Positions 23,302-54,823 of a stretch of 64,000 bases of DNA are shown here, in pieces. Position numbers and translations under genes: made by a program. The notes beneath the pieces are model-generated. The model saw nothing but the letters and a program-made list of their open reading frames with translations. It had not been told where the DNA came from and made no database searches. The DNA is from Planotetraspora phitsanulokensis (GTDB lineage: Bacteria; Actinomycetota; Actinomycetes; Streptosporangiales; Streptosporangiaceae), in the NCBI RefSeq assembly GCF_016863295.1, contig NZ_BOOP01000008.1, positions 62,001-126,000 of the forward strand, read 5' to 3'. Each line of letters begins with the position of its first letter. The stretch's first letter is position 1.

Positions 23302-23643
23302 ATGCGCACCATCCCGATCCCGGTCGACGTCACCAAGCTGCAGTTCGTCTGCGTCCGCGCACCCCGGCCGCGGATCCTCAATCAGGACACCGGCGAGATC
23401 AAGACCGACAAGAACGGCCAGACCGTCTACGAGATCGTCCTGTCCGTCGAAGACGAGCTCGGCCGGATCGAACTCGTCAAGGTCGGCACCTCGGGCGAAC
23501 CCCAGGTCGCCGCCGGCCAGGACGTCACCCCGGTCAGCCTCGTCGGCTACGCCTGGGAGATCTCCCGCGGCGGCGACACCCGGTGGGGGATCAGCTACCG
23601 GGCCGCCTCGATCGTCCCCGCGGGGATGAACGCCCTTGCCTGA
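23302..23643 (+). CDS. SCO3933-family AICE protein
   Basis: A 113-aa protein, ATG 23302 with AAGGAGG upstream. The sequence (PIPVDVTKLQFVCVRAPRPR, then DKNGQTVYEIVLSVEDE) matches the small SCO3933-type family placed just before the FtsK-like gene in actinomycete integrative elements. Its biochemical role is not established; some annotations call it regulatory. Its last codons overlap the translocase gene. Confidence 0.75.
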   Translation: MRTIPIPVDVTKLQFVCVRAPRPRILNQDTGEIKTDKNGQTVYEIVLSVEDELGRIELVKVGTSGEPQVAAGQDVTPVSLVGYAWEISRGGDTRWGISYRAASIVPAGMNALA

Positions 23644-24988
23644 CACCCTGTGGACGACTCTCGGAGCCCTGGCCGCCCTGGCGGCCGGGCTCTGGGCCTG
23701 GCGTCGCTACCACTACCCGTCGTTCTGGCTGGTCATCGGCTTCCCGCTGATGGCCATCACCATCCGCTCCACCTGGCGCACCGTCGCCCTCGGCTGCGGC
23801 CTGACCAAGAAGCGGCAACGCTTCTGGTTCACCACCGTTCCCCGCCTGATCGCCTCGACCGGCCTCGTGAAGGTTCGGCGGCGCTTCCAACGGGTTGTCG
23901 TCGACACCAAACCCTTCATGTGGCTGCCACGCCCGACCCGGCACGGCTGGCGCGTCACCCTCCACACCCTGGAAGGGCAGATCCCCGCCGACTACGCCAA
24001 CGTCGCCGAACGACTCGCGCACTCCTGGGGCGTCCACGCCGTCCGTGTCTCCTCACCCCGTCCCGGCCGCATCGTCCTGGCCGCGACCATGCGTGACCCC
24101 CTCATCCGCCTCGACCACATCCCGTCCTCGGGCGAACTGCTCAACGTCACCATCGGCAAACTGGAGACCGGCGGCCCGTGGACCATCGACTTCCGCACGA
24201 TCCCGCACTGGCTCAACGCCGGCGCCACCCAATCCGGCAAGTCCAACTTGGCCAACGCGCTAATCGTCGGCCTGGCTCCGCAGCCAGTGGCGCTGGTCGG
24301 GTTCGACCTCAAAGGCGGAGTCGAGTTCACCCCCTACGCTCCGCGCCTGTCCGCACTAGCCACCACCCGCGCCGAATCGGTCGGCCTGCTGGATGACCTG
24401 GTCGCGCTGATGGTCGCCCGGATGGGCCTGTGCCGTGCAGCGGGCGCACGCAACATCTGGCAACTCCCCGACGCGGTCCGCCCGGTCCCGGTAGTGGTGC
24501 TGGTCGACGAGCTGGCCGAGCTGTACCTGATGGCTGACAAGTCCGAGAAGGACGAGATCGCTAAAACCTCGACTGCGTTGTTGCGGGTGGCGCAGCTTGG
24601 GCGGGCGTTCGGCATCTACCTGTTCTGCTCCGGCCAACGGATCGGCTCCGACCTCGGACCCGGCGTCACCGCACTCCGCGCCCAGTGCTCGGGACGGATC
24701 TGCCACCGGGTCAACGACCCCGAAACCGCGACCATGACCCTCGGCGACCTCGATCCCGACGCCCTGGCCTCCGCCCGGGCCATCCCGGCCGAAACCCCTG
24801 GCGTCGCGATCGTCGCGAGTCAGGACGGCCAGTGGTACCGCGGCCGGTCCTTCTATGTCTCCGAGCAGGCCGCCGAACACGCCGCCACCACCTACGCGGA
24901 CTGTAATCCGTCCTGGGACGAGATCACCCGTCCCGGACGGTCCTCCGAGGTGACCGAGACCGACCTGTCCGAACTCCTCACCGCCTGA
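23636..24988 (+). CDS. FtsK/SpoIIIE-type DNA translocase (TraB-like)
   Basis: A 450-aa protein starting at TTG 23636, overlapping the previous gene. Two transmembrane segments (about residues 5-45) precede an FtsK motor with Walker A GATQSGKSN (about residue 202) and Walker B VVVLVDELAEL (about 285). AICEs transfer as double-stranded DNA through a single hexameric translocase of this kind, so this is the conjugation gene. It lacks an obvious C-terminal gamma-like winged helix, in keeping with the shorter TraSA type. Confidence 0.88.
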   Translation: MPDTLWTTLGALAALAAGLWAWRRYHYPSFWLVIGFPLMAITIRSTWRTVALGCGLTKKRQRFWFTTVPRLIASTGLVKVRRRFQRVVVDTKPFMWLPRPTRHGWRVTLHTLEGQIPADYANVAERLAHSWGVHAVRVSSPRPGRIVLAATMRDPLIRLDHIPSSGELLNVTIGKLETGGPWTIDFRTIPHWLNAGATQSGKSNLANALIVGLAPQPVALVGFDLKGGVEFTPYAPRLSALATTRAESVGLLDDLVALMVARMGLCRAAGARNIWQLPDAVRPVPVVVLVDELAELYLMADKSEKDEIAKTSTALLRVAQLGRAFGIYLFCSGQRIGSDLGPGVTALRAQCSGRICHRVNDPETATMTLGDLDPDALASARAIPAETPGVAIVASQDGQWYRGRSFYVSEQAAEHAATTYADCNPSWDEITRPGRSSEVTETDLSELLTA

Positions 24989-25008
24989 CCGACAGAAGGG
25001 AGGGAACG

Positions 25009-25719
25009 ATGCGACGCCTCGCCTCATGGCTGCTCGACACCGGGCCGGTCCTCATCCTGGCCGCTATCGCGGGGGCTGGATCGTTCACCCACATCCGCGA
25101 CACCGCCACCGATCACGGGCAAACCGGCTGGATGTCCTGGGCGGTCGCCGTGTGCGTCGACCTCACCTGCGTCATGGCCGCCCGCGAACGGCAACGTGAC
25201 AAGAAGACCGGACGAAGGCGGACCGGCCTTACGTCCTGGCCGACCCTCGTCCTGATCGCAGGGATCGTCCTGTCCCTGGCCGCCAACCTCCAGCAAGCTG
25301 AACCCACCATCTGGGGACGCCTCACCGCCGCCGTCCCCGCTGGCGCCTTCCTCATCGCGGTCTCCATGCTTGAACGCCGCGCAACCGCGCCCCGCCTCGA
25401 ACCACCCGCGGCCGTAGCCGTCCCGGCATCGTCCCCGGTCACTGCGCAGCCGTCCGCATTCGTCCCCAGCTCGTCCTCATCGGTAGGCGCGCCGTCCTCT
25501 GTGCCCGTCGCCGTCCTGACGGCTCAGGACGGCAGGACGGAACCGATGGGACCGTCCTCGACGCTGGTCGACTACGCCCGCCGCGTCGCCGACGACCACC
25601 ACGCCAAGCACGGGAAACCCATCACCCGCGACTTGCTCCGCTCGCGTCTGGGTGTGTCCAACCAACTCGCCTCCGACCTGCTTCACACCGTACGCGCCGC
25701 CGCCTCGGAGCCCACCTGA
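25009..25719 (+). CDS. SpdB/DUF2637-like membrane protein
   Basis: A 236-aa protein, ATG 25009 with GAAGGGAGGG upstream. About four hydrophobic segments occur before residue 125 (GPVLILAAIAGAGSF, WAVAVCVDLTCVMAA, LVLIAGIVLSLAANL, GAFLIAVSML), the DUF2637 arrangement. A Pro/Ser-rich linker follows, then a C-terminal HTH-like segment (ITRDLLRSRLGVSNQLASDLL). Spread proteins of this type aid intramycelial spreading of the element after transfer. Confidence 0.78.
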   Translation: MRRLASWLLDTGPVLILAAIAGAGSFTHIRDTATDHGQTGWMSWAVAVCVDLTCVMAARERQRDKKTGRRRTGLTSWPTLVLIAGIVLSLAANLQQAEPTIWGRLTAAVPAGAFLIAVSMLERRATAPRLEPPAAVAVPASSPVTAQPSAFVPSSSSSVGAPSSVPVAVLTAQDGRTEPMGPSSTLVDYARRVADDHHAKHGKPITRDLLRSRLGVSNQLASDLLHTVRAAASEPT

Positions 25720-25736
25720 CGAAAGGAGCCCTGACC

Positions 25737-25898
25737 GTGAGAATCCGCCTCGACGGCACCCCGGCCGAAATCATCGACGCACTGTTCCGGTTGCGCCAGA
25801 CCTTCACCGTCTCGGGCGTCTCCCGCACCTACCCCGACCGCGCCAAGAAGCACCGCTCGCGGGTCTTCGTCACCACCACACCACGCGAAAGGAGGTGA
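25737..25898 (+). CDS. Small conserved AICE protein
   Basis: A 53-aa protein, GTG 25737 with GAAAGGAG upstream. It reads RIRLDGTPAEIIDALFRLRQ, then VSGVSRTYPDR and ends in a basic tail. Short proteins of this kind recur between the SpdB-like and Rep genes in these elements. No function is known. Its stop lies inside the ribosome binding site of the next gene. Confidence 0.6.
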   Translation: MRIRLDGTPAEIIDALFRLRQTFTVSGVSRTYPDRAKKHRSRVFVTTTPRERR

Positions 25899-25904
25899 AT
25901 CACC

Positions 25905-26045
25905 GTGGACGACACCGAGCAGTCCCCTAACCCGGAAACCGAGTCGGCCGCACCTCTGCGGTGGCAGTGCTGCCACTGCGGCGGGACCGGCCTGGACTCC
26001 TACGGCGAGACCTGCCGCCACTGCAACGGGCTCGGCCTGTGCTGA
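25905..26045 (+). CDS. Small CxxC zinc-finger protein of AICE
   Basis: A 46-aa protein, GTG 25905 with AAAGGAGG upstream. Two CxxCxG-type knuckles (CCHCGGTGL and CRHCNGLGLC) resemble half of the DnaJ zinc-finger domain. The gene lies between the small basic protein and the replication initiator. Function unknown. Confidence 0.6.
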   Translation: MDDTEQSPNPETESAAPLRWQCCHCGGTGLDSYGETCRHCNGLGLC

Positions 26046-26143
26046 CCCCGTGAGCGCCCCCGGCCTGGCCGCACATCCGCCAAGACACACGCCAGGTCGA
26101 GGGCCATCCCTCCACCCGCAACGAGTGAAAGGAGGACACCATC

Positions 26144-27529
26144 TTGCCCGCATCCACCACTAACGCGCACGCAATCCACGGCGCCATCAGCCGCCTGAAA
26201 GACCCCCACTACACTCGCTGGGCATCCCAGATCCGGCGCTCAGGCGGCTGCCGACAGCCGATCCACCTCCGCGGCAAAGTCGAACACTGGGACACCGCCA
26301 CCGGCACCCTGCTCCACCGCTATAGCACCCGCCTCGAACCGGACGGCGTCCTACGCGTCCCCTGCAAGACCCGGCGCGCCTCGCGCTGCCCGTCGTGCGC
26401 AGAGGTCTACCGCGCCGACACCTACCACCTCATCCGTGCCGGCCTCGTCGGTGGCAAAGGCGTCCCGGAGTCGGTGACGGCACATCCGTGCCTGTTCGTC
26501 ACCCTTACCGCGCCGCCCTTCGGCGCTGTCCACACCCGCAGGGAGCGAAACGGCAAGATGCTGCCCTGTCACCCCCGCCGGGACGCCCAGGTGTGCCCGC
26601 ACGGGATCATGCCGTCGTGTATGGTGCGGCACCAGCCGAATGCCGAAAGCCTCGGCGAACCACTCTGCCCCGGCTGCTACGACTACACCGGCTCCGTCCT
26701 GTTCAACGCCCTCGCGCCCTTGCTGTGGAAACGCTTCACCAACGCTCTGCGCCGCCACATAGCGAAAAGCGGTGACCTCACCTTGCGCGACATGCGTGAA
26801 CAGCTCACTGTCGCGTTCGCCAAAGTCGCCGAATACCAACGCCGCGGCGTCGTCCACTTCCACGCCGTCATCCGCCTCGACGGTCCCAGCGGTCCCGGCC
26901 TCGACCCTCCCGGCTGGGCCACGGCTGACGTCCTGGCGCAAGCCGTCCAGCACGCCGCAGGTGCCGTCACCGCGACCACCCCTGCGGCTGCTGGTACTTC
27001 AGCGCGAGTTCTGCAGTGGGGACGCGAGATCGACGTCCGGCCCATCACCCTGCGGGGTGACCTGACGGAACAGGCTGTGGCCGGCTACATCGCCAAGTAC
27101 GCCACCAAAGCGGCCGAATGCGTCGGCACCCTCGACCGGCGCATCGTCCCCACCGAAGATTTGGCGCTGCTGCCTGTCCGCGACCATGCGCGTTGTCTCA
27201 TCGCCGAATGCCTCCGCCTGGGCGCCTTCAGCGGGCTGGCCGGCCTGCGGCTCATCCACTGGGCGCACATGCTCGGCTTCGGGGGCCACTTCTCCACCCG
27301 GAGTCGCCGCTTCTCCATCACCCTCGGCGACATCCGCGCCGACCGCGCTGAACATGCCCGAACCGAGGCCGTCTCGACCGGACGCCTACTTCTCTTCGAC
27401 GAGGACACCGCCCTTGTCGTCAGCGACTGGCACTACGCCGGACGAGGCTTCACGCCTGGTGACGCGCTCCTAGCGGCCTCCATGACCAAAGGCAGTGTCT
27501 CGTCGTCAGGTGACGGGGGTGGTGTGTGA
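26144..27529 (+). CDS. RepSA-type rolling-circle replication initiator
   Basis: A 461-aa protein, TTG start 26144 with AAAGGAGG upstream. A cysteine-rich N-terminal region (CPSCAEVYRADT, CPGCYDY) precedes the HUH motif VVHFHAVIRLDG (about residue 240) and the Tyr motif AGYIAKYATKAA (about residue 315). These are the catalytic features of actinomycete Rep relaxase-like initiators, which nick the excised circle for rolling-circle replication. The stop overlaps the excisionase start. Confidence 0.85.
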   Translation: MPASTTNAHAIHGAISRLKDPHYTRWASQIRRSGGCRQPIHLRGKVEHWDTATGTLLHRYSTRLEPDGVLRVPCKTRRASRCPSCAEVYRADTYHLIRAGLVGGKGVPESVTAHPCLFVTLTAPPFGAVHTRRERNGKMLPCHPRRDAQVCPHGIMPSCMVRHQPNAESLGEPLCPGCYDYTGSVLFNALAPLLWKRFTNALRRHIAKSGDLTLRDMREQLTVAFAKVAEYQRRGVVHFHAVIRLDGPSGPGLDPPGWATADVLAQAVQHAAGAVTATTPAAAGTSARVLQWGREIDVRPITLRGDLTEQAVAGYIAKYATKAAECVGTLDRRIVPTEDLALLPVRDHARCLIAECLRLGAFSGLAGLRLIHWAHMLGFGGHFSTRSRRFSITLGDIRADRAEHARTEAVSTGRLLLFDEDTALVVSDWHYAGRGFTPGDALLAASMTKGSVSSSGDGGGV

Positions 27530-27717
27530 TGTCGACCGACGACATGCTGACGCTGCCTCAGGTGCTGGCCGAACTGAATGGTGTCTCTCTGCGCACCTTC
27601 TATCGGTGGCGCGAACTCGGCAAGGCTCCCGTCTGCACCCGGTATCCGAACAACAAGCTGAGGGTACGGCGGAGCGATCTAAACGCTTGGCTCGACGCAC
27701 GTAGGGAGGCGTCGTGA
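27529..27717 (+). CDS. xis: Excisionase (Xis), MerR-like HTH
   Basis: A 62-aa protein from ATG 27529, overlapping the Rep stop. LTLPQVLAELNGVSLRTFYRWRE and LRVRRSDLNAWL form the helix-turn-helix and wing of AICE excisionases. It directs the adjacent integrase towards excision. The integrase GTG start overlaps its stop as GTGA, so the Rep-Xis-Int cassette is fully coupled. Confidence 0.82.
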   Translation: MSTDDMLTLPQVLAELNGVSLRTFYRWRELGKAPVCTRYPNNKLRVRRSDLNAWLDARREAS

Positions 27718-29087
27718 CGACCAGCTATGACGTCCGCTTCTGGGATACACGGCGTAACGCCTCCAGCAAGAAGCCGTCGTACGAAGCCCGGTGGAAGGTC
27801 GGCGGCAAGGCGAAGTCGAAGACGTTTCGTACCAAGGCGCTTGCCGACAACTTCGTGTCTGACCTGCGGCAAGCGGCCAAGCTGGGGGAGGCATTCGACG
27901 TCGTCACTGGTCTTCCGCTGTCGATGCTCGCAGCAGACAACTCGAAGCCGTCTGGTCCTACCTTCCTGGAGTTCGTGCAGTCGTACCTCATGAGCCGTTG
28001 GCGCAGTTCGGCCGCGAGGACTCGTGAGACAGACGCCTACGCCATGCTGTCGCTGGTTCCCGCTCTTGTGGCGGACCTGCCGAGCCGGCCAAGTGATTCG
28101 GAGATACGCGGTGTTCTCCGCAGCCACGCGCTCCTACCGGAGGGGAGGAGGGCCGACCTCACCAACAGGCAGGCTGTCACGCTCCGCTGGCTGGAGAAGG
28201 CGTCACTCCCGATGTCGGATCTAAGGGAAGCTCGCTTGCTCCGCATCGCCCTCGACGCCATCGCAGAGACCTTCGCCGGCAAAGAAGCCGGGGCGAACAC
28301 AGTCAGGCGCAAGCGAGCTGTCTTCCACCATCTCCTTGAGCAGGCAGTAGAGCAGAAGCTCTTCGTGAGTAACCCGCTCGATGAGATCAAGTGGACACCT
28401 CCCAAGGCCGTCACCGCTGTCGACCCACGTACAGTCGTCAACCCTGCGCAGGCGCGGAAATTGCTGGACGCCGTATCCATGGTCGGCCGCAAACGCGGCC
28501 CACGGCTCAAAGCCCTTTTCGCATGCATGTACTACGCAGCCCTGCGCCCGGAGGAAGCGAGCGACCTACGTCTGAAGAACTGCACGCTGCCAAGCGCGGG
28601 ATGGGGATTGATCATCCTGGAGAAGGCGCGTCCTCAAAGCACCAAGCGATGGACGAACACGGGGGAGACCCACGAGCCGAGAAGCCTGAAGCATCGTGCT
28701 GACAAGGAGACTCGGGAGATTCCCATCCCGCCCTCCCTCGTCGACGTCCTTCGCTCCCATGTCGAGGAGTACGGCACGGCGGAGGACGGCAGACTGTTCC
28801 GGACAAGTACTGGCGGGACCCACTCCAGCTCCGCGCATTCCTATGTCTGGCAGGAAGCCCGGAAGCTCGCCCTCACGCCGGCACAGTCTGCGTCGCCTTT
28901 GGCCGCCCGGCCATACGACCTTCGACATGCTGCGGTGTCGCTATGGCTGAATGCGGGCGTCTCGCCTACTGAAGTCGCCAAGCGCGCAGGGCACAGCGTG
29001 GATGTCCTCCTTCGGGTCTACGCCAAGTGCATGGACGGTCAGCAGGACGCCATCAACAACAAGATCAATGATGTTCTCGACTGCTAA
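27714..29087 (+). CDS. int: Tyrosine integrase of AICE
   Basis: A 457-aa protein, GTG 27714. The catalytic domain shows Arg in YYAALRPEEASDL, the HxxR box DLRHAAVSLWLNAG, and GHSVDVLLRVYAKC holding the later His and the nucleophilic Tyr. It is full length and appears intact. The attachment site normally flanks the integrase, but no tRNA 3' fragment is seen within 400 bp downstream; the nearest tRNA is 6.4 kb away at 35.5 kb. Confidence 0.87.
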   Translation: MTTSYDVRFWDTRRNASSKKPSYEARWKVGGKAKSKTFRTKALADNFVSDLRQAAKLGEAFDVVTGLPLSMLAADNSKPSGPTFLEFVQSYLMSRWRSSAARTRETDAYAMLSLVPALVADLPSRPSDSEIRGVLRSHALLPEGRRADLTNRQAVTLRWLEKASLPMSDLREARLLRIALDAIAETFAGKEAGANTVRRKRAVFHHLLEQAVEQKLFVSNPLDEIKWTPPKAVTAVDPRTVVNPAQARKLLDAVSMVGRKRGPRLKALFACMYYAALRPEEASDLRLKNCTLPSAGWGLIILEKARPQSTKRWTNTGETHEPRSLKHRADKETREIPIPPSLVDVLRSHVEEYGTAEDGRLFRTSTGGTHSSSAHSYVWQEARKLALTPAQSASPLAARPYDLRHAAVSLWLNAGVSPTEVAKRAGHSVDVLLRVYAKCMDGQQDAINNKINDVLDC

Positions 29088-33554: not shown

Positions 33555-34916
33555 TCAGTCGTGATCCCGCTGTTCCTGATGACTGGCAATCCGTCGCGTG
33601 GTGGAAATTCGTTGTCGAATGATCTCGGCCCAGAAGTGTTCGCCGTGCCTGTAGGCGCTGCCGGCGTAGCGCCATTCGCCCGCCGTCAGCACCTCGTGCT
33701 CTCCGAGGTCAGGTAGCCCCGTCGCTGACGAGACTGCTCGGCCCGAAACGCAGCACGGAGCCCACGCAGCGCCCCTAGCGTGGTCGAGTAGTAGCGACTC
33801 TTCGTCGAGAAGTGGCGCCGATAACCGAGCATGTGCGCCCATTGCCGCAGCGGGATCAGCCGGTATTCGGCGGTGCCCGCCAGGACGAAGCAGGCATAGA
33901 TCATGCGTCGCGCATGTTCGGTGACGTCGAGGTGCGCGACAGCGAACATCTCGCGTATCGGCCGGTCAACGGTCCGCGCTGACTCGGCCCCCTTGGTCGC
34001 GTACTTCGCCACGTAGGACGCAACCCGCTGATCGGCGATCCCTTCTACGGACGTCGCCACACAGATGGGTTCCACATCGAGCTGCGTACCCCACCGTCCT
34101 ACGAACGACGGTTGATCGTCCGGGACGGAAACACCCACCCCTCCCGCAGCTTCCTGTATCGCCGCCCGGAGGACGGGGACCGTGGCCCAGTCAGCCGGAC
34201 AGTCCGCAGGACCGTCCGGTCCGTCGAGGCGGATCACCGCATGGAAGTGGACCTGACCGCGAGCCGGATATTCGGCGACCTTGGCATACGACAGGCGCAA
34301 TCGCCGGCGCAGCTCCGCCCGAGTGATCCCCAGATGGCGAGCGAGGACGGCCGGAAGTGCCCTGAGTGAAGCGACGCCACAACTCGCCCGCATGGGCGTT
34401 CCAAAGCACCGCGCCCCGGTAGTCGTAGCAGTTCATGCAGATCGGCTGACCTATCTGGGTGTCGCCGTCCTCATGGCGCGCCCTGCACCTTTGCGGCCTG
34501 CCGTGCTCGCACACCGGGTCGTCGCGGCGAGGACGGCACGGCAGCACCTTGTCTTCCTTCTGTCGCTGAGCATGGACAGCCCCGATGAAGGTGGCGAACA
34601 CACGGGGATGGGCGCTCACGTCTTCAGGGACGCCCTTACCGCCACGCAGCCCAGAAAGAATCAGGTGCTACGTGTCATCGCGATAGACCTCCGAGCACGC
34701 CGGGCACCGAGACGCGCGCCGATTGCCGCACGCCGTCAGTAGAAACCCGGTGGGCTCATCAGCGGTCCGATAGACGTCCAGCACGTCCAGGCTGGAATCG
34801 AAGGTGACCCGATGACCTACAAGCCGGATGGGTTGAGCGCAGCCGCCCGTTGCGCGAACCATCTCTTGCCAACGGGTGAAATCGGGCGTGGCGGCACGCT
34901 GAGCAGCGGCGTACAT
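33555..34916 (-). pseudogene. Decayed RepSA-type initiator of a second AICE
   Basis: The minus strand carries most of a Rep protein homologous to that at 26144-27529. WQEMVRATGGCAQPI and CPACSEVYRDDT end at an in-frame TAG at 34668, where the intact protein has Tyr. The same frame continues with PRVFATFIGAVHAQR and MNCYDYRGAVLW. A frameshift near 34390 leads to VHFHAVIRLDG (HUH) and VASYVAKYATKGAE (Tyr motif), and another near 33720 to the C-terminal WRYAGSAYR. One nonsense mutation and two frameshifts make it dead. Transfer and integrase genes of this element are absent. Confidence 0.85.
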
Positions 34917-46720: not shown

Positions 46721-46797
46721 GGGGCTATAGCGCAGTCCGGTAGCGCACTTCGTTCGCATCGAAGGGGTCTGGGGTTCAAATCCCCATAGCTCCACCA
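46721..46797 (+). tRNA. tRNA-Ala (anticodon CGC), intact
   Basis: Acceptor arms GGGGCTA and TAGCTCC pair with the G3-U70 wobble that identifies tRNA-Ala. The anticodon arm CTTCG-TTCGCAT-CGAAG carries CGC, T-loop TTCAAAT is standard, and CCA is encoded. Its last 45 bp are repeated at 50851, 51914 and 54779, so the gene serves as attachment site for integrative elements. Confidence 0.95.
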
Positions 46798-46805
46798 ACG
46801 TCAGA

Positions 46806-46837
46806 GGCCAGTTCCGATCACCGGAACTGGCCTTTCT
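46806..46837 (+). terminator. Rho-independent terminator after tRNA-Ala
   Basis: A perfect 11-bp stem (GGCCAGTTCCG / CGGAACTGGCC) with a 5-nt loop, followed by TTTCT. Similar hairpins in the same position follow the tRNA fragments at 51.96 and 54.83 kb. Confidence 0.8.
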
Positions 46838-46868
46838 GATCTCTGTGCAGCAACCGGTGCAGCAGTAG

Positions 46869-47506
46869 CTAGCCATCCAGGCTGACCTCGAGCCGCTTAA
46901 GCGCTTCGCGAGTCGTGGCCGAGGGAACCTCGCTGTAGACCTCCATGGTCACCGCGATCTGGCTGTGTCTGAGGATCTGCATTGCCACCTGAGGATGAAC
47001 GTCGAGCGCCACAAGCAGCGAGGCGCAGGTACGCCGGGTGTCGTGGACCTTGCTATAGCGAACACCGGCCCGGGCGCATCGAGCTGCAAAGTGCCGGTTG
47101 AAATTGCGCGGTTCGTATGGTGTGCCATGCGTTGTGGTGATCACCAGACCGCAGTCTGTCCAGGCATCCCCGGCTTGAGATCTGTCGACAGCCTGTCGTT
47201 CGGCACGATCTTTGATCGCCGTCAGGCAGATCTCCGGCAGGGGGGCACCGCGGCTGCCCCGGTGTCTTAGTCTCGCGATGGTGCAGCTTGCCCCCGACTC
47301 GTTGCAACTGCCACGTGACGGCGATCTCTGCTGAGTCGTAGTTCACGTCAGCCCAGGTCAGCCCGAGGACCTCACCTCGTCTGAGACCCAGCACCAGGAC
47401 CAGCACGTATGCCGCATAGAGCGGATCACCGTCCTCGCGGGCAGACTCTAGGAATTGCCGAGCCTCGTCAACGGACCACCAGGTCTTGCGTCGCTTAGAA
47501 CGGTCC
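46869..47506 (-). pseudogene. Tyrosine integrase remnant at tRNA-Ala
   Basis: Minus-strand segments read WWSVDEARQFLESAREDGDP and LVLGLRRGEVLGL (catalytic Arg), then after a frameshift near 47260 ITTTHGTPYEPRNFNRHF, HDTRRTCASLLVAL (HxxR) and RHSQIAVTMEVYSEV (last His and Tyr). The N-terminal arm-binding half is missing. Position next to the tRNA 3' end, reading towards it, is that of an element integrase. It is inactive, so the cassettes here are stranded. Confidence 0.85.
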
Positions 47507-47588
47507 GCCTACCCAGGAGTCTCACGTCTGCGCTGGCAGGCATTGGGGCATGCCGGACATGGGGAAGCAGATGCGCTGCGCCACGTCG

Positions 47589-48569
47589 TTACTGAGCGCT
47601 GGGTACGGAACTAGTGAAGCTGAGCAGAAGTGCGGCGGTCCGCGGCGGATCCTCGATCATGGGTGTGTGTCCAGCGTCCGGCACCAACTCGACTCTCGCG
47701 CCCGCGACGGCGCGGTATTGGTCGGCGGATGAGGATGGAAACCTCTGGTCCTGCTCGCCGAAGATCACCAGCAGTGGTTTGCCGAGGCCGGTGAGCCGAT
47801 CCGGGAGCGGACGCTGGTTCAGATAGTCGTCGGACGCCTGCGATGTCGCGGTGAGCGCGTGGTAGGTCATGCCGCGCGTATCGTCGACAAGCCCCTGCGG
47901 GATGTTCGTGAAACCTGGCGCGAACGCGGAGCTCATACCCCGGCGAACGATCCCGTCGGTCCGAAGTCGCCACAGTAGTTGCCCCAGCACGGGGGCGAAG
48001 ACGAGATTGCCGACGGCCCCGGAGGAGACGAATGCGTCCAAGCTGGGTCCGGTGTCGATGAGTGCTATCGCGGTCACCAGGCCGCCTCGTTGCTCGGCGA
48101 GGGCGGTGGCGACGTAGCCCCCGGTGGAATGGCCGACGACGATGGCGTGCTTGACGCCGAGCTGGTCTAGTGCCTGGCCGACCCGGTGTCCTTGCTGTTC
48201 CATCGTGTAGACGTCGCCGGCCGGTTTGGCGGACCGGCCGTGCCCGAGCAGGTCGATCCGGATGACGCGATAGGACGTGGCCAACATCGGCACCACCGGA
48301 TCCCACGAGCGGAGTGAGCTGCCGAGCCCGTGGATCAGTACGAGGGCGGGGGCGTCGCGGGGTCCGTCCTGGCTCACGTAGATGTCGCCGCCGTCAACGG
48401 GCAGGGTCGAGTTCCCGGTGGCGTCGGCGTCCTGCCCATCCACCATTACCGCGTTCCCCAGAAGCAGCCCGATGATGGCGAGGAGGACCGCGAAGGCGAT
48501 GATGCGGCGTCGGCGCTTTGCCGCACGTCTCGGGTGTGGTTGTGCAAGGGGTTGTGCAAGGGCTGGCAT
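47589..48569 (-). CDS. Membrane-anchored alpha/beta hydrolase
   Basis: A 326-aa protein. A basic N-terminus (AAKRRRR) and a transmembrane segment (IIAFAVLLAIIGLLLGNAV) anchor an alpha/beta hydrolase: oxyanion HGLGSSLRSW, nucleophile elbow VVGHSTGGYVA (Ser), Asp in FGEQDQRF and His in DAGHTPMIEDP. The substrate is unknown; the type resembles haloalkane dehalogenase or esterase-like proteins. It is divergent from the histidine kinase. Confidence 0.82.
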   Translation of the reverse strand: MPALAQPLAQPHPRRAAKRRRRIIAFAVLLAIIGLLLGNAVMVDGQDADATGNSTLPVDGGDIYVSQDGPRDAPALVLIHGLGSSLRSWDPVVPMLATSYRVIRIDLLGHGRSAKPAGDVYTMEQQGHRVGQALDQLGVKHAIVVGHSTGGYVATALAEQRGGLVTAIALIDTGPSLDAFVSSGAVGNLVFAPVLGQLLWRLRTDGIVRRGMSSAFAPGFTNIPQGLVDDTRGMTYHALTATSQASDDYLNQRPLPDRLTGLGKPLLVIFGEQDQRFPSSSADQYRAVAGARVELVPDAGHTPMIEDPPRTAALLLSFTSSVPSAQ

Positions 48570-48749
48570 GATTCTCCGTTCCTTTCGGTTCGGCTCCCCA
48601 TCGTCGGGGTCTCAGCCGCCCCAGTCGTCGGCCAGCCGCAGCGACTACGCAGGGCGTTACCGCGCCATCCGGTGCGGCCTTCGGCTTCGCCTACTGCATC
48701 GGCAGTAGTTCAGTCGCGGATGGCGAGGGCGGTTGCTTACAGTCCTGGT

Positions 48750-49922
48750 ATGTGGGCGAGTGTGTGGAGCAGGCTGATGTCCAGGCAGCAGCTGCTCCTG
48801 TTTTCGGCGATCATGTCGATGGTGCTGTTCGCGGTGGTGACGATCCCCGCCGACGTCCGGCATGCGCTGAGTTCTCACCAGCCGCTGAACTGGGCGGTGT
48901 CCGTCGTGGTCTACGCGGTCTTGGTGGCGTGCCGGCGGTTCCCGATCGCCATCGTGGCGGTCGCCGTCATCGGGTCGGTTGTGCTGATGGCGGACGGTAT
49001 GGCCTACCCGCTGACCTTGCCAGCGGTCTTCTACGCGCTGTACTCGATTGCGCTGGGTTCCGGTCAGGTGCGGACGCTCGCGGTCGGCGTCGCCGTCAAG
49101 GTGGTCCTGGTCACCGCCTCGCTGATCACCCATCCCGGCATCACAGGCTTCGTCGTGCTGCTGTGGGCGGCCTTGGCGGTGACCACCGGCTTCGCCGCCC
49201 GTAGCCACCATGCCTACGTCGCCGAAGCCGACGAGCGCGCCAGGCGCGCCGAGCAGGCCAGGGAGGACGAGGCGAAGCGCCGCGTTGCCGAGGAACGGCT
49301 ACGGATCGCCCGGGAACTGCACGACGCCGTCGGGCATCATGTCGCCCTGATCAACGTGCAGGCCGGCGCGCTGGCCTGCCTGCTCGACGACGAGGACCGG
49401 TCGCAGGCCAGGGAGTCGGTCGCGCACATCCAGCGGGCCAGCGAAGAAGCCCTCGAGGACCTGCGGCTGACCGTCGGGTTGCTGCGCGAGCCCGGCCTGG
49501 AGCCGACGGAGCCGGTGCCGGGACTTGACCAGCTCGAGGAGCTGCTCTGCTCATTCGCCGGCGCGGGCCTGCAGGTCACCCGCGAGGTGACCGGCCAGGC
49601 CAGACCGTTGCCCGAGGCGGTGGAGCTGACCGCCTACCGGGTCATACAGGAGTCGCTGACCAACATCCGCAAGCACGCGGACTGCGATACTGCGGTGGTG
49701 CGGCTCGGGTACGCGCCTGGGGCGCTCAGGCTGACGGTCGAGGACGAGGGCAAGGCGGTCACCCAGGGCGGCCGGCGCATGCCTGAAGGGCACGGCATCG
49801 TGGGCATGCGAGAGCGGGTGGCTGCCGTGGGCGGACGGCTGTCGGCAGGGCCAAGGCCCGAGGGAGGCTACCGCGTCTTCGCCGAGCTTCCGCTGCGCGC
49901 GGCCGGGATCGAGGGTTCGTGA
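48750..49922 (+). CDS. NarL-type sensor histidine kinase
   Basis: A 390-aa protein; ATG 48750 chosen because coding-like sequence begins there. About five hydrophobic segments (residues 15-150) precede a short coiled coil, the HisKA_3 H-box RIARELHDAVGHHVALINVQ and a HATPase domain (VIQESLTNIRKHA N-box; GHGIVGMRERV G-box). It phosphorylates the response regulator whose gene overlaps its stop. Such pairs in actinomycetes often control adjacent exporters or hydrolases; the divergent hydrolase is a candidate target. Confidence 0.87.
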   Translation: MWASVWSRLMSRQQLLLFSAIMSMVLFAVVTIPADVRHALSSHQPLNWAVSVVVYAVLVACRRFPIAIVAVAVIGSVVLMADGMAYPLTLPAVFYALYSIALGSGQVRTLAVGVAVKVVLVTASLITHPGITGFVVLLWAALAVTTGFAARSHHAYVAEADERARRAEQAREDEAKRRVAEERLRIARELHDAVGHHVALINVQAGALACLLDDEDRSQARESVAHIQRASEEALEDLRLTVGLLREPGLEPTEPVPGLDQLEELLCSFAGAGLQVTREVTGQARPLPEAVELTAYRVIQESLTNIRKHADCDTAVVRLGYAPGALRLTVEDEGKAVTQGGRRMPEGHGIVGMRERVAAVGGRLSAGPRPEGGYRVFAELPLRAAGIEGS

Positions 49923-50638
49923 CCGGGACCATGCCTGCCTCGCCGGCGTCCGCCGCCACGGCGCCGACCCGCGTGGTCCTCGCCGACGACCAGGAACTTA
50001 TCCGCGCGGGCCTGCGGCTGGTGATCGACCGGGCGCCAGGGCTGACGGTAGTGGGCGAGGCGGCCAACGGCCACGACGCGGTCCGGGTCGCCCGCGAGGC
50101 ACGTGCCGACGTCGTCTTGATGGACATCCGGATGCCGGGCCTTGACGGGCTGGCCGCTACCCGGCGGATCGCCGCTGACGACAGCCTCGCTGGGGTACGG
50201 GTGCTGATCCTGACGACGTTCGAGATCGACGAGTACGTCTTCGAGGCGCTGCGGTCGGGGGCCAGCGGGTTTCTCGGCAAGAGCGCGCGCCCGGACGCCC
50301 TGATCGACGCGATCCGCACGGTCGCCCGCGGCGACGCGCTGCTTTCGCCGTCCGCCACCCGGGGCCTCATCGCCAGGTTCCTCACGCTGCACGACAGAGA
50401 GCCGGTCCGCCCTTCGCCGTTGCTTGCCACCCTCACCGACCGCGAGCGCGAGGTGGTAGCCCTGGTCGCCGACGGGATGTCCAACACGGACATCGCCCGC
50501 CAGCTCACGCTCAGCCCGCTCACCGTCAAGACCCACGCCAACCACGCCATGACCAAGCTCGGCGCACGCGACCGCGCGCAGCTCGTCGTGCTCGCCTACC
50601 AGACCGGCCTGGTACGCGCGCCACGTCCCCGGCCGTGA
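49919..50638 (+). CDS. NarL/LuxR-family response regulator
   Basis: A 239-aa protein, GTG 49919 overlapping the kinase stop. The receiver domain has LADDQELIRAG (acidic pair), phospho-acceptor Asp in VVLMDIRMPG and Lys in LGKSARPD; the LuxR HTH is LTDREREVVALVADGMSNTDIARQL with VKTHANHAMTKLGARDR. It activates or represses transcription when phosphorylated by the partner kinase. Confidence 0.9.
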   Translation: MTGTMPASPASAATAPTRVVLADDQELIRAGLRLVIDRAPGLTVVGEAANGHDAVRVAREARADVVLMDIRMPGLDGLAATRRIAADDSLAGVRVLILTTFEIDEYVFEALRSGASGFLGKSARPDALIDAIRTVARGDALLSPSATRGLIARFLTLHDREPVRPSPLLATLTDREREVVALVADGMSNTDIARQLTLSPLTVKTHANHAMTKLGARDRAQLVVLAYQTGLVRAPRPRP

Positions 50639-50735
50639 ACTACCGCGCCGCCGAGGACGACCCCGGTCCGTCACGGGGCCGGGCGGGGCTGCCGCTGGCG
50701 CTAGAAGTCCCAGCAGCTCACGCGAGCAAGAGTGA

Positions 50736-50794
50736 GTGACTAAACGAGTGACAACCGCCAAGAACAGTAGGGGACGCCAGCGAACAACGGCGGA
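50736..50794 (+). promoter_or_regulatory. Arm-type repeat block upstream of tRNA-Ala fragment 2
   Basis: GTGACTAAACGAGTGACAAC (from 50736) and CAGCGAACAACGGCGGA (50778-50794) lie 115 and 73 bp before the att core at 50851. The same two blocks lie at exactly the same distances before the core at 54779, while the DNA between them differs. They are likely integrase or excisionase arm sites. Confidence 0.55.
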
Positions 50795-50850
50795 CGGTTC
50801 CAGCAGGGGCAACACCGCATATGACGACGTAAGGATGACGTTGAGTTGGC

Positions 50851-50895
50851 TTCGCATCGAAGGGGTCTGGGGTTCAAATCCCCATAGCTCCACCA
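50851..50895 (+). repeat. tRNA-Ala 3' fragment (att copy 2)
   Basis: A 45-bp perfect copy of the tRNA-Ala 3' end (46753-46797) from the anticodon loop through CCA. The 5' half of the tRNA is absent, so it is not a functional tRNA. It is an att site left by site-specific integration. Confidence 0.9.
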
Positions 50896-50900
50896 TGACG

Positions 50901-50936
50901 AAAGGCCCGCCAGGGGAACGCCTGACGGGCCTTTTT
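50901..50936 (+). terminator. Terminator hairpin after att copy 2
   Basis: AAAGGCCCG and CGGGCCTTT form the outer stem, with CAGG/CCTG inside after one C-A mismatch, followed by TT. It differs from the hairpins after the other att copies, so it may be the chromosomal terminator that originally followed the tRNA or belong to another element. Confidence 0.7.
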
Positions 50937-51123
50937 GCTGCTCAGGGGCTGTTCAGGAAGTCTCGGGCTGATCTTCTTCTGGGGTGGGCGGGGGACAGCA
51001 GTCGAAGGCGCCTACACGGCAGAACCGGAGCGTGTTGCAGGACCTCTGCCCGGACCGGGGGCCTCGCTCCAGGCCCGTGCGAATGTGGCGTGACGATCAG
51101 CTGGTGCGTGGTTCACTGCTGAG

Positions 51124-51699
51124 GTGGCTGACGACTTAGAAATCGTTTCGTTCGAATCCGCCGAGGCATTCGAGTCCTGGCTGAGTGAGCACTACTCCTC
51201 CTCTCCCGGGATCTGGCTGAAGCTCACGAAGAAGGTTCGCGGCGTCGTGGCTCTGGACTACGCGCAGGCCCTCGATGTGGCACTTTGCTACGGCTGGATC
51301 GACGGGCAGAAGGGCAAGTTCGACGACTGGAACTGGCTGCAGCGGTTCACGCCACGCAGGCCGAAGAGCAAGTGGTCGAAGGTAAATCGCGACAGGGTCG
51401 CGGCCCTAATCGAACAGGGGCGCATGCAGCCGCCCGGGTTGGCCGAGGTCGAGCGCGCCAGGGCGGATGGCCGTTGGGACGCCGCCTACGACGGAGCGAA
51501 GAGCGCCTCGGTGCCGGACGATCTGGCCGAGGCCCTCGCGGCGAACCCGGCCGCGGCGGAGTTCTTCGCGACGCTGGACAGCCAGAACCGCTACGCGATC
51601 CTGTACCGCGTCCAGGACGTCAAGAAGCCCGAGACCAGGGTGCGACGGATTGAGAAGTATGTAGCGATGCTGGCCGAGCAGAAGAAGCTCCACTCCTGA
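51124..51699 (+). CDS. YdeI/OmpD-associated (OmdA) family protein
   Basis: A 191-aa protein, GTG 51124. FESAEAFESWLSEHYSSS, LDYAQALDVALCYGWIDGQ and a helical C-terminus (RRIEKYVAMLAEQKKLHS) fit the OmdA/YdeI family (PF13376), small cytoplasmic proteins linked to stress or antimicrobial resistance. It is the only gene between att copies 2 and 3, so it forms a minimal cassette of about 1 kb. Confidence 0.82.
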   Translation: MADDLEIVSFESAEAFESWLSEHYSSSPGIWLKLTKKVRGVVALDYAQALDVALCYGWIDGQKGKFDDWNWLQRFTPRRPKSKWSKVNRDRVAALIEQGRMQPPGLAEVERARADGRWDAAYDGAKSASVPDDLAEALAANPAAAEFFATLDSQNRYAILYRVQDVKKPETRVRRIEKYVAMLAEQKKLHS

Positions 51700-51913
51700 A
51701 GTCACCGCCCTGAGGCTGCTTCGGCAGTCACGGACCACCGGCCCTGGACCGGAGATCATGGACAGATGACCCGCCCGCTGGGGAAGCCGGAGTCAGCGAA
51801 AAGTCGGCAGATTGGCTGACGCAGGACCGTCGTGAAGGTCACTGGTCGGCATAGTCCCTACACCTGACGGCACCTGTTGGCACCCACTGATTCTGCAGCA
51901 CGCTCGACCAGCG

Positions 51914-51958
51914 TTCGCATCGAAGGGGTCTGGGGTTCAAATCCCCATAGCTCCACCA
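51914..51958 (+). repeat. tRNA-Ala 3' fragment (att copy 3)
   Basis: A 45-bp perfect copy of 46753-46797. It also keeps CG before the core, as in the intact tRNA, and the downstream bases ACGTCAGAGGCC, so homology extends beyond the tRNA. The upstream flank lacks the arm blocks seen at copies 2 and 4. Confidence 0.9.
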
Positions 51959-51966
51959 ACGTCAGA

Positions 51967-51998
51967 GGCCGGTTGCGCCCAGCGGGACCGGCCTTTCT
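51967..51998 (+). terminator. Terminator hairpin after att copy 3
   Basis: GGCCGGT and ACCGGCC form the stem around a 13-nt loop, followed by TTTCT. Nearly identical in sequence to the hairpin at 54832, which places both in the same att flank family. Confidence 0.6.
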
Positions 51999-52197
51999 GA
52001 TCTTCTAGGTGACTGGCTGAGTGACTACAGCGGATCCTTACCCCTGGGTGCGGCTGAGATGGTGCAACCCCTATGCCTCGCGAAGAAGATGGACCCAAGA
52101 CCTCGTATCGGCCGTTCGGAAGTGTGGACCTCAAGTCACGGTCTTTCGGGGCACGCGATGATGACGCCATGAGATTCGGAACCGCATCCAGGCTGAC

Positions 52198-53004
52198 TCA
52201 GATGGCGATGAAGAATTCCAGCAGTTCTGGGGCGAGGGACTGAGGGGCCACGTTATGCGTCTCGTCCTCCAGGATTCTGTGCACCGCTCGGGGGACGGTC
52301 GCAGCGACCGACTTTCCCGCGTTGGTCATCCACGCAGGGCTGTTCTCGCCGATCAGCACGAGCGTGGGCTGCGTTATCGAGGTGAGAAGTTCGGTGGGCA
52401 GGGCGTTGCCCGGCCCCATGAGAGCAGCCTCGTACGCCAGGGTGTGAGCGATCGCTTCCACTCCTGACCAGGAGGAGTGGGCGCGCATCGCGGTCACCGT
52501 CTCGACGGGGACCTCGGCAGCCTCGACCATGAACAGCTCGGCCGCTTCCGCGCGCCGGCCTTGTCTGACCAGGATTTCCAGTCGCGATGCGAAGTCGTAC
52601 GACAGACTGGGTGCGCTGTCGTCAACGTGGTACGGAGGCTCCCACACAGCGAGTCTCGAGATGGCCGGGTTCCGGGCCGTGGCCTCCAGCGCCAGAGCGG
52701 CGCCGGAGGACCCACCGAAAACCATGGCCGACCCGCCCGCCGCCTCGATGAGGGCGGACAGGTCCTCGATCTCACGCTCAACGGCATACGGCTGGGTGTC
52801 GCCGCTTTCGCCGCGGCCACGACGGTCATAGTTGAAAACCGTGAACCATGGGGCCAGGGCGGCCGCTACGCCGCACAGCGTGGGATGGGTCTTGTCGGTG
52901 AACGCGCCGTGCACCAGGACGACCGCCGGCCCGACGCCGGATCGGTCGTACGCGATGGAGGTCCCGTCGGCCGAGGTCACCCTTCCGGTCATCATCTCGT
53001 TCAT
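52198..53004 (-). CDS. Alpha/beta hydrolase
   Basis: A 268-aa protein; ATG 53004 with AAGGA 9 nt upstream, though ATG 53013 is possible. Motifs: VVLVHGAFTDK (oxyanion), FNYDRRGRGESG, nucleophile elbow VFGGSSGAAL (Ser), LVLIGENS, and a C-terminal His in EDETHNVAP. It lies 14 nt downstream of the VOC gene on the same strand, so the two are probably co-transcribed. Substrate unknown. Confidence 0.84.
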   Translation of the reverse strand: MNEMMTGRVTSADGTSIAYDRSGVGPAVVLVHGAFTDKTHPTLCGVAAALAPWFTVFNYDRRGRGESGDTQPYAVEREIEDLSALIEAAGGSAMVFGGSSGAALALEATARNPAISRLAVWEPPYHVDDSAPSLSYDFASRLEILVRQGRRAEAAELFMVEAAEVPVETVTAMRAHSSWSGVEAIAHTLAYEAALMGPGNALPTELLTSITQPTLVLIGENSPAWMTNAGKSVAATVPRAVHRILEDETHNVAPQSLAPELLEFFIAI

Positions 53005-53017
53005 GGCGCGCATTCCT

Positions 53018-53410
53018 TCAGCCTGCCGATGCCACCAGGCACAGGGCCTCCCAGTGGTGGCCGTCGAGGTCGGTGAAACCGCGCTGGTACCGGTAGCCGT
53101 CATTCTTCGGATCGCCGACGGGGGCGCCACCCGCCGCGAGGGCCTTGTCGAACAACTCGTCGACCTGAGCGGGGTTCTCGACGCCCATGACCAGGATCAC
53201 CTGGGTGCTCTTGGTGGCGTCGGCGACATCCGTGCTCGCATACGTGGCGAACGTCGGCTCGGCCAGCAGCATGACCTGCGCGTGCTCATTGATCACCACG
53301 GACGCCATGTCGTCGGTCATGCCGAAGAACGTGAAGCCGAGGTCGGTGAAGAACTTCTTCGACCTGTCCAGGTCTCTGACCGGAAGATTGACAAACAGTA
53401 CGGTGGACAT
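53018..53410 (-). CDS. VOC-family (glyoxalase-like) protein
   Basis: A 130-aa protein. FVNLPVRDLDRSKKFFTDLGFTF opens the first beta-alpha-beta module and GYRYQRGFTDLDGHHWEALCL closes the second, as in glyoxalase/bleomycin-resistance proteins. The family binds metal or small molecules. It is divergently arranged with nothing and precedes the hydrolase; the AraC gene upstream on the same strand may control both. Confidence 0.86.
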   Translation of the reverse strand: MSTVLFVNLPVRDLDRSKKFFTDLGFTFFGMTDDMASVVINEHAQVMLLAEPTFATYASTDVADATKSTQVILVMGVENPAQVDELFDKALAAGGAPVGDPKNDGYRYQRGFTDLDGHHWEALCLVASAG

Positions 53411-53530
53411 CGCTGGAGCCTTCCCTGACGGTTGTTCGCGCCGGTTGGTGCGAACACCTTTATTCTGCGAATCCAGGCCCGCCGGGGCTTGGCTCTCGGT
53501 GCCAGCCGATTGACTTTCCGTGCCAGCCCC

Positions 53531-54505
53531 TCAGCCCGGTGGCATGAGGCAGGTGCGGCGGTACTCGGCGGGAGGCAATCCGTACGTGCGCCGGAACAAC
53601 CGGCTGAAGTGAGCCGAGTCCGGAAGGGCGTACCTGGACGCGATGACCCCGACGGGTACGTTGTGGAAGGCCGGGTCGGCCAGGTCTTTCCGGCAGCGTT
53701 CGAGACGCCGGTGCCGTATCCACGCGGCCACTGTGGTGTCCTGTGTCTCGAACAGTCGGTGCAGGTAACGCAAGGAGACATGGTGCGCGGCCGCGACGGT
53801 GCCGGGGGCCAGATCGGGTTCGCCCAGATGCTGCTCGATGAAGGTGTGGATGCGCAGCAGCAACGTTCGTGACCGTGACCCCTCCGAGAGCGTCTCGATC
53901 TGCTCGACGCGCTCGGCGATGGCCATGGTGACCAGGTCCATCACCACTGTGGACAGCCGGGCCGCGTTCGCGGGCTGGTAGGTCTCGAGATCCAGGGCCA
54001 CCCTGCGAAGCAGGGGGGCCGCGAGGGCGCCCGCCCCGCAATCTGGTGTGATCGGGACCGCGGTGAGCTTCGCGATGGAATCGAAGGGCAGGGCCAGCAT
54101 CGCACGCGGCAAGCCGAAAATCGCCAGATGCACCGCCGAGTCATAGGCCAGCTCGTACGGCCGGCCGAAGTCGTAGATTGCGAACTCTCCGCGTTTGAGC
54201 TGCGTGGACCTGCCGTCTTGCATCAGGGCGGGGCGTCCCGAGATCGCCAGCACCACTCGATAGAGGTCGGGGTTGTCGTGGCGGATCAGACCAGGTGTCC
54301 GGTGGACGCTGTGTGGCGTGGAGGTCTGCACCCTGCCGACACCCAAGGGGCCGAGTTGCCCCGCGCTGATCTCACCCCGTAACGGTGCGTCCCCCTCGAT
54401 CCGGAAATCGAGAGGACCGAGCGTGTCACAGACGATGCTTCGCCATTCGTCATATCGGCGCGCGGCGGGCACGTCACGAGTGCGGATCAGGATGCCCATC
54501 CTCAT
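53531..54505 (-). CDS. AraC-family transcriptional regulator
   Basis: A 324-aa protein, ATG 54505. The N-terminal AraC_binding_2 domain (GRVQTSTPHSVHRTP, FAIYDFGRPYELAY) is followed by the double HTH: IEQHLGEPDLAPGTVAAAHHVSLRYLHRLF and VGVIASRYALPDSAHFSRLFRRTYGLPPAEYRR. It is probably the local regulator of the VOC-hydrolase pair in this cassette. Confidence 0.88.
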   Translation of the reverse strand: MRMGILIRTRDVPAARRYDEWRSIVCDTLGPLDFRIEGDAPLRGEISAGQLGPLGVGRVQTSTPHSVHRTPGLIRHDNPDLYRVVLAISGRPALMQDGRSTQLKRGEFAIYDFGRPYELAYDSAVHLAIFGLPRAMLALPFDSIAKLTAVPITPDCGAGALAAPLLRRVALDLETYQPANAARLSTVVMDLVTMAIAERVEQIETLSEGSRSRTLLLRIHTFIEQHLGEPDLAPGTVAAAHHVSLRYLHRLFETQDTTVAAWIRHRRLERCRKDLADPAFHNVPVGVIASRYALPDSAHFSRLFRRTYGLPPAEYRRTCLMPPG

Positions 54506-54663
54506 CGCCCTCCGTTGCGGTTTATGGGTCGAGTCTCTGGCCGATTGTCCCTCGCCGAGATCTCAAACGCGACGAGTACGGCTTGGGCCATGAGGCGGTT
54601 GACTGGCTGATCGCTCTCGACAGTGCCGGCTTCCCGCATCGTGAGGGCAACCCTTCTCTTAAG

Positions 54664-54722
54664 GTGACCAACTGAGTGACAACCGCGGCGGAAGCCGGCG
54701 AACTTCAGCGAACACCGACGAA
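54664..54722 (+). promoter_or_regulatory. Arm-type repeat block upstream of tRNA-Ala fragment 4
   Basis: GTGACCAACTGAGTGACAAC (from 54664) and CAGCGAACACCGACGAA (from 54706) stand 115 and 73 bp before the att core at 54779, the same distances as at copy 2. Likely integrase arm sites. Confidence 0.55.
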
Positions 54723-54778
54723 TGCTTGCACCAGGTCAAGCACCACGAGACCGCACGTTCATGTGTTAGCGAATTGGC

Positions 54779-54823
54779 TTCGCATCGAAGGGGTCTGGGG
54801 TTCAAATCCTCATAGCTCCACCA
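54779..54823 (+). repeat. tRNA-Ala 3' fragment (att copy 4)
   Basis: A 45-bp copy of 46753-46797 with a single C-to-T change in the T-stem. The rightmost copy of the series, so it marks the outer border of the tRNA-Ala-linked accessory DNA. The downstream flank matches that of copy 3. Confidence 0.9.

Follow-up and report, generated by a model that had tools for sequence, protein, structure and literature searches.

How does a single tRNA gene come to be followed by several copies of its own 3′ end, with a few genes lying between one copy and the next? The locus that raises this question is a tRNA-Ala(CGC) gene of Planotetraspora phitsanulokensis, located in a stretch of 64,000 nucleotides (nt) that we call the window (C8:62001-126000 of the 9.17-Mb draft genome, G000). 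The array that follows this gene probably represents a stack of decayed elements of the actinomycete integrative and conjugative element (AICE) type, generated by repeated insertion and subsequent internal deletion and left as remnants resembling cis-mobilizable elements (CIMEs).

Displaced tRNA-Ala(CGC) ends delimit three units

The last 45 bp of the tRNA gene, taken as the attachment core, occur four times in the window when up to three mismatches are allowed, always on the plus strand: inside the tRNA at 46753, as perfect copies at 50851 and 51914, and with one change at 54779. None of 100 shuffles matched this four-copy result, and chance does not account for the three displaced ends. The first-pass annotation of this DNA had described an intact tRNA-Ala(CGC) and three same-strand 45-bp copies of its 3′ end; the 45-mer scan showed its coordinates, orientation and mismatch counts to be correct. 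The copies divide the interval 46.7-54.8 kb into units A (4.1 kb), B (1.06 kb) and C (2.87 kb). The resulting stack is flanked by attachment (att) sites of one specificity (core copies 1 to 4) and sits at a tRNA 3′ end, as AICE insertions do.

46721..46797, plus strand: intact tRNA-Ala(CGC) (ARAGORN); its last 45 bp (46753-46797) are the attachment core
46753-50850: unit A, bounded by core copies 1 and 2
50851..50895, plus strand: core copy 2, 45/45; closes unit A, opens unit B
50851-51913: unit B, bounded by core copies 2 and 3
51914..51958, plus strand: core copy 3, 45/45; closes unit B, opens unit C
51914-54778: unit C, bounded by core copies 3 and 4
54779..54823, plus strand: core copy 4, 44/45; right end of the array as recognised

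Copies 3 and 4 remain alike past the end of the tRNA, at 97% over a stretch of 101 nt that contains a terminator-like hairpin. Past copy 4, no convincing degenerate core was found in a scan of 54.9-62.0 kb. ARAGORN also called a transfer-messenger RNA (tmRNA) at 50799-51184, overlapping core copy 2; this call is probably false.

Arm-like repeats lie at set distances from the cores

The motif GTGAC-N5-GAGTGAC (type I) is found exactly 115 bp before core copies 2 and 4, and likewise before displaced cores in G004, G062 and G110 and before two of three in G145. The third G145 core has it at 117 bp, G001 and G099 carry a one-letter variant, and G107 is without the motif. On the left side, a type I motif starts 94-105 bp past the core start in G062, G099, G110, G120, G139 and at window copy 3. 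The evidence lies in the position of this motif, which by itself is not rare enough in the window to prove anything. Two other arm types were distinguished: type III, defined by the right end (approximately 135 bp) at core copy 3 and also present in G009, G061, G074 and G133, and GTACAGC-like repeats (F37).

A two-copy direct repeat with a run of at least 8, located 85-145 bp before the core, marked 15 of 29 boundaries in the own genome versus 0.9% of 580 interior windows, and 13 of 32 boundaries in relatives versus 1.25% of 640 control windows, in a zone and with periods chosen after the arms had been seen. For the relatives, 33 boundaries were listed and G066 was dropped as an artefact, its core having been placed outside the tRNA. 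From what is generally known of tyrosine integrases, these repeats are putative integrase arm sites.

Contents of the units

The features recognised within the units are as follows.

46798..46845, plus strand: terminator-like hairpin and left end resembling the GTACAGC-arm (F37) element type
46878..47502, minus strand: integrase remnant of the F37 lineage (PF00589), in two frames
47498..47626, no strand assigned: 129-bp segment, 98.5% identical to DNA shortly past tRNA-Ala in G098, of another genus
47589..48569, minus strand: alpha/beta hydrolase, unit A cargo (PF00561)
48330..49922, plus strand: histidine kinase (HK), unit A cargo (PF07730/PF02518); start of the open reading frame (ORF) uncertain, shared part begins at 48576
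49919..50638, plus strand: LuxR-type response regulator (RR), unit A cargo (PF00072/PF00196)
50736..50752, plus strand: type I right arm repeat GTGACTAAACGAGTGAC, 115 bp before core copy 2
50896..50979, plus strand: type III left end (terminator-like hairpin)
51124..51699, plus strand: YdeI/OmdA-like protein, the sole gene called in unit B (PF13376)
51792..51805, plus strand: type III right arm repeat, inside the right end of about 135 bp
52009..52025, plus strand: type I left arm repeat GTGACTGGCTGAGTGAC of unit C, 95 bp past the core start
52198..53130, minus strand: alpha/beta hydrolase, unit C cargo (PF12697)
53018..53410, minus strand: VOC/glyoxalase-like protein, unit C cargo (PF00903)
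53531..54505, minus strand: AraC-family regulator, unit C cargo (PF14525/PF12833)
54664..54680, plus strand: type I right arm repeat GTGACCAACTGAGTGAC, 115 bp before core copy 4

Pfam matches agree with the cargo sets first proposed (hydrolase/HK/RR, YdeI-like, hydrolase/VOC/AraC). A defence role of the cargo was considered and rejected: among the seven proteins only the RR matched PADLOC (two CARF models, residues 165-214), interpreted here as a cross-match of the DNA-binding end. The three units yielded neither a functional integrase nor functional transfer genes, A containing only a broken stub and B and C none (small ORFs were partly scanned). Similarly, the ORFs from 46.7-54.8 kb that were submitted to Pfam did not include the AICE set of an integrase, Rep and FtsK/SpoIIIE.

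The integrase remnant of unit A aligns to residues 191-400 of a 401-amino-acid (aa) relative and is 61-63% identical in aa sequence to the G127 integrase. Because the left end and the integrase are of the GTACAGC type and the right arm is of type I, unit A is best read as parts of two elements fused by deletion. Its ancestry from a larger element is suggested by the stub and by a 14.3-kb relative in G098. This 14.3-kb unit, at the same tRNA, contains the HK-RR block (48576-50662) with 97.9% identity over 2,087 bp, and the upstream anchor protein is 54-66% identical in G098 (in two pieces). At the level of sequence comparison, a recent exchange of the HK-RR segment between genera is shown. The block stops short of the att sites on both sides and is therefore not evidence for transfer of unit A as such. 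Both reading frames are open in the two genomes, with 12 substitutions at 972 non-synonymous and 14 at 372 synonymous sites for HK, and 8 at 514 and 9 at 203, respectively, for RR. Per site, non-synonymous substitutions are thus about three times lower than synonymous ones, a pattern compatible with weak purifying selection.

Over 130-141 bp, the left end of unit B together with its core matches the tRNA flanks of G002 and G001 at 93.6-96.2% identity; the type III right end of the unit is only 67% identical to the G074 version over 142 nt. Unit C contains three genes, and a type I repeat is present at each of its ends. Shared ends and arms are the only link of B and C to larger elements.

Three integrase lineages follow tRNA-Ala in relatives

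Integrases of three lineages, the third only as a broken gene, are found past tRNA-Ala in relatives, with 24-29% mutual identity (longest mutual alignments). Near-full-length type I integrases occur in G034, G119, G123 and G133 (77-81% identical to that of G110), and GTACAGC-type integrases in G060, G063, G067, G070 and G122 (62-80% identical to that of G127), as well as in G073 and G127. Type I arms at both ends accompany the first lineage (G110, G119, G034, G133), and GTACAGC-like repeats at both ends accompany the second in all five elements looked at (G060, G063, G067, G070, G122). The units of nine relatives that open with a near-full-length integrase measure 8.6-16.7 kb. Partial integrases lie near the tRNA in G003, G062, G099 and G139.

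The third lineage is represented in G002 by a broken gene directly past tRNA-Ala, related (64-67% aa identity) to an integrase at tRNA-Val on contig C29 of the own genome. There, a 20.2-kb unit with type III repeats at both ends encodes an intact 421-aa integrase, RepSA (E 4e-156) and an FtsK/SpoIIIE-type protein. It thus has the AICE gene set, i.e., an integrase, a pSAM2-like Rep and FtsK/SpoIIIE. The DNA of this region is 66-81% identical in stretches to the tRNA-Ala elements of G060, G067, G110, G122 and G127. AICE status does not extend with certainty to every integrase-bearing element at tRNA-Ala; Pfam matches in that of G119 comprise an integrase, a helix-turn-helix domain, GntR and DUF3631.

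The first-pass annotation had suggested searching the genome for an integrase acting in trans. Among 22 PF00589 hits in the own genome, the 20 with loci were compared with five tRNA-Ala integrases (two of them partial) of the two main lineages. No intact type I or GTACAGC-type integrase was present among these 20, only the stub being close; the runner-up, a gene containing a stop (L075), reached 44% over 142-180 residues. The own integrase of the third lineage is intact but located at tRNA-Val.

The same annotation had counted only one broken integrase, which holds for the interval 46.7-54.8 kb but not for the wider window, where an intact tyrosine recombinase ORF lies at 27714-29084. This 457-aa protein is 22-26% identical to the integrases compared (alignments over 100 residues) and belongs to an AICE-like gene set at 23636-29084, with FtsK (23636), DUF2637 (25009) and RepSA (26144). 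Between tRNA-Arg(CCT) and the AICE-like set lies a second, shorter RepSA ORF (33689-34393, minus strand). A displaced tRNA-Arg end was not detected in the window.

The tRNA-Ala(CGC) site varies among relatives

We examined 81 loci of the family Streptosporangiaceae and found the tRNA in 80, the window's own included. Extra core copies were absent at 54 of these, with one copy at 20, two at 3 and three at 3. The 26 of 80 loci with one to three copies are a lower bound, as three loci extend less than 2 kb downstream and others are short; copies were found at 24 of the 62 loci with at least 17 kb downstream. G066, a candidate for an additional locus (27 in total), was rejected as an artefact because its core had been taken outside the tRNA. 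A search of the named genomes for the exact attR pattern, which is too strict for divergent tRNAs, returned 8 records, several of them from species that the G genomes already represent.

Within the genus, G001 and G004 have one extra copy each (G004 also a partial one), and G003 has none in 39 kb. At an E value of 1e-12, the window cargo had no match in four congeners (G002 covers 1 kb past the tRNA), and only HK and RR were matched in the relatives' loci that were searched. The same cassettes are thus not fixed in all relatives, and the matches outside the congeners are limited to HK and RR. Genes common to many loci (families F1 to F5), including one that we take to be rsmI from sequence likeness, sit at varying distance to the right. 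The tRNA-Ala(CGC) site is a variable integration hotspot.

In G002, contig C47 stops approximately 1 kb past tRNA-Ala and the same core recurs on contig C16; such arrays may therefore break short-read assemblies.

Displaced ends occur at a quarter of the tRNA genes

In a scan of the own genome with the last 38 nt of each tRNA (at least 32 matching, 3-30 kb downstream, mostly more than 10 kb), same-strand displaced copies were found at 14 of 57 tRNA genes. No copies were detected on the opposite strand or in 1,140 scans with shuffled tails. The 29 copies, each closing a unit, are distributed over Gly(CCC) (6), Val(CAC) (4), Ala(CGC) (3), Ala(TGC) (3), Phe (2), Arg(ACG) (2), Gly(TCC) (2) and seven other tRNA genes (1 each). 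The shortest unit measures 962 bp and the longest 20.2 kb; the median is 2,906 bp, and 15 of the 29 do not exceed 3 kb. A count of 15 of 58 was discarded, as it included a false tRNA-Phe (ARAGORN; L225, C22:60339-60427) that is a displaced tRNA-Ala(TGC) copy in a three-unit stack.

The tRNA-Gly(CCC) sequence has 19-25 matches in each of the five genus members. These are spread over several contigs, many comprise just the 3′ part, and other tRNA-Gly genes are included in the number. At this tRNA, units 5 and 6 of the own genome are collinear with G003 (94.6% over 1,785 bp and 98.3% over 2,073 bp), where three further whole units (1545, 4545 and 768 bp) precede the shared flank (94.1% over 490 bp). 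This difference is the insertion or loss of whole units at a core. Own units 3 and 5 have different middles and common ends on the two sides (92.6% and 90.6%), and their left end resembles that of the integrase-bearing unit 1 (66-69%). Left and right repeat subtypes match in units 3, 4 and 5 (b-b, c-c, b-b) and are unlike in unit 1 (a-b); in units 2 and 6 the pattern used found no left repeat. The Val(CAC) stack opens with a III-III unit 1; units 2-4 each combine a type I half-site on the left with type I on the right. Matching subtypes within units favour discrete insertions, and the often-missing left repeats speak against easy mobility.

A 660-bp acetyltransferase segment is shared, inverted and with 98.2% identity, between a tRNA-Arg unit of the own genome and a tRNA-Ala unit of G004. 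The tRNA-Arg(GCG) unit (L208) contains a displaced tRNA-Gly(CCC) end with its right arm (C1:116885-116923), and the shared segment begins exactly at the end of this displaced copy. Two adjacent tRNA-Val(CAC) units (L199, C29:126448-131560) have 1,453 bp in common (85.5%), three small genes among them, which looks as though one unit had entered twice or been duplicated. On the same contig, the tRNA cluster Val(GAC)-(Cys)-Gly(GCC) occurs three times (near 40.9, 59.8 and 93.1 kb, 19-33 kb apart), and Val(GAC)-like matches recur three to a contig in four congeners.

Origin of the array

Serial accretion, the proposal of the first-pass annotation, is well supported by copy number and content that vary between relatives, by arm-like repeats at set distances and by G003, which differs by whole units at another tRNA. 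In the sequence of events that we consider likely, the 3′ end of tRNA-Ala(CGC) would have been entered by elements whose tyrosine integrases were of at least two and probably three kinds. Each insertion would have restored the tRNA and left the displaced 3′ end as its right boundary. Internal deletions would then have removed the integrase, replication and transfer genes, sparing the cargo, the right arm site and the boundaries. The binding of integrases to the repeats, the order of the insertions and the origin of the small size by deletion, not by mobilisation of ready-made mini-units, are what we infer here. The small units look like deletion products of larger elements because of the integrase stubs, the 14.3-kb relative of unit A and the two arm types in A. 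The units were first described as very small integrative elements; small they are, but with integrase-bearing relatives of the sizes given above they appear to be reduced forms.

Several observations weigh against this explanation. Other genera also have units of 0.8-1.3 kb that lack an integrase and carry a type III right end; transfer of ready-made small units accounts for this recurrence better than random deletion does. In B and C no integrase stub was recognisable (lowest E 0.065; small ORFs partly scanned), so that decay of these two is presumed rather than seen. The left arm was not found, by the pattern used, in unit B and in five G003 units examined. The three window boundaries score runs of 7, 4 and 5, below 8, and were assigned by motif, and 3 of 100 shuffles of the window also had at least three type I motif matches. 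Lastly, the 732-aa candidate transfer protein of G119 has no Pfam match.

An unlikely alternative is that single-gene units delimited by a tRNA core and a right arm are themselves mobile, being integrated and excised in trans by integrases of visiting AICEs, somewhat in the manner of integron cassettes. Units that lack an integrase, have a type III right end and differ in cargo measure 823, 957, 1063 and 1328 bp in G074, G009, the window and G061, respectively; they would fit such traffic, as would the agreeing arm subtypes of Gly(CCC) units 3, 4 and 5, the three whole units of G003 placed exactly between the end of the unit shared with the own genome and the shared flank, and the acetyltransferase segment found in units of two different tRNAs. 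The G003 difference is equally explained, however, by loss through recombination between cores, and the arms of Gly(CCC) unit 1 are unlike. Several units retain integrase stubs, and hence some at least are decay products; left arms are often missing, which should impair excision. In addition, the own genome holds an integrase of type I or the GTACAGC type only as a stub (20 of 22 PF00589 hits compared), and its type III integrase sits at tRNA-Val, whose core differs; these findings weaken the mobilisation in trans that the first-pass annotation had considered possible. The broader proposition that Planotetraspora-type genomes run an integron-like, tRNA-based system, with arrays at a quarter of the tRNA genes and small units inserted, lost and exchanged in trans by passing AICE integrases, is for us a doubtful one as well.

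Two other explanations were given far less weight. Phages, too, use tyrosine integrases at tRNA 3′ ends, so that the units might be prophage remnants instead of conjugative elements. We consider this very improbable: the C29 type III element carries RepSA and FtsK/SpoIIIE-type genes, and its DNA resembles in stretches that of the five tRNA-Ala elements mentioned above. Hardly credible is an origin of the copies in which the tRNA 3′ end was duplicated locally or spread by gene conversion, without site-specific recombination. The copies are indeed short and in the same orientation, but the DNA to the left of many is the arm region shared with complete elements, not tRNA; moreover, copies are present at 14 tRNA genes and contents differ by whole units.

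Relation to known systems

Integron cassette arrays are strings of one- to few-gene units parted by a short recombination site. Here, in contrast, the junction site is a tRNA 3′ end with arm-like repeats.

A closer counterpart is provided by CIMEs, which in the account given in PMC5704250 (citing Pavlovic 2004 and Bellanger 2011) have lost integration and transfer genes, kept the flanking att sites and become stacked at one target by later insertions. The units described here are likewise without functional integrase or transfer genes, bounded by att cores and stacked at one site; they differ by their actinomycete host, by sizes down to about 1 kb with a single gene, and by the 14 of 57 tRNA genes affected. 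At tRNA-Arg of Streptomyces, AICEs, defective AICEs and remnants accrete, with shared direct repeats and different integrases for one site (PMC9513070). The likeness lies in different element families, remnants and integrases at one tRNA. The Streptomyces case comprises one to three elements and an ancient remnant, whereas here several integrase-free units of few genes retain arm-like repeats. Frankia has tandem AICEs at tRNA-Lys, some of them remnant or mobilizable elements without tra or rep, and adjacent elements share one tRNA, as in our case (PMC3218068). The Frankia tandem elements carry integrase genes of their own and excise singly or jointly; in units B and C, no integrase was seen.

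Accretion and CIME formation are a known principle, met here in what appears to be an unusually miniaturised and widespread form, the array scan being confined to genomes of the family. No description of genome-wide mini-unit arrays was found in the open-licence literature, among the matches listed.

Arrays of this kind seem to interrupt assemblies and to produce spurious tRNA and tmRNA calls. Should the small units still be mobile, tRNA genes would be cassette platforms through which these soil actinomycetes exchange individual adaptive genes. Even as debris, the arrays document the conjugative elements that came to each tRNA and the cargo that was retained.

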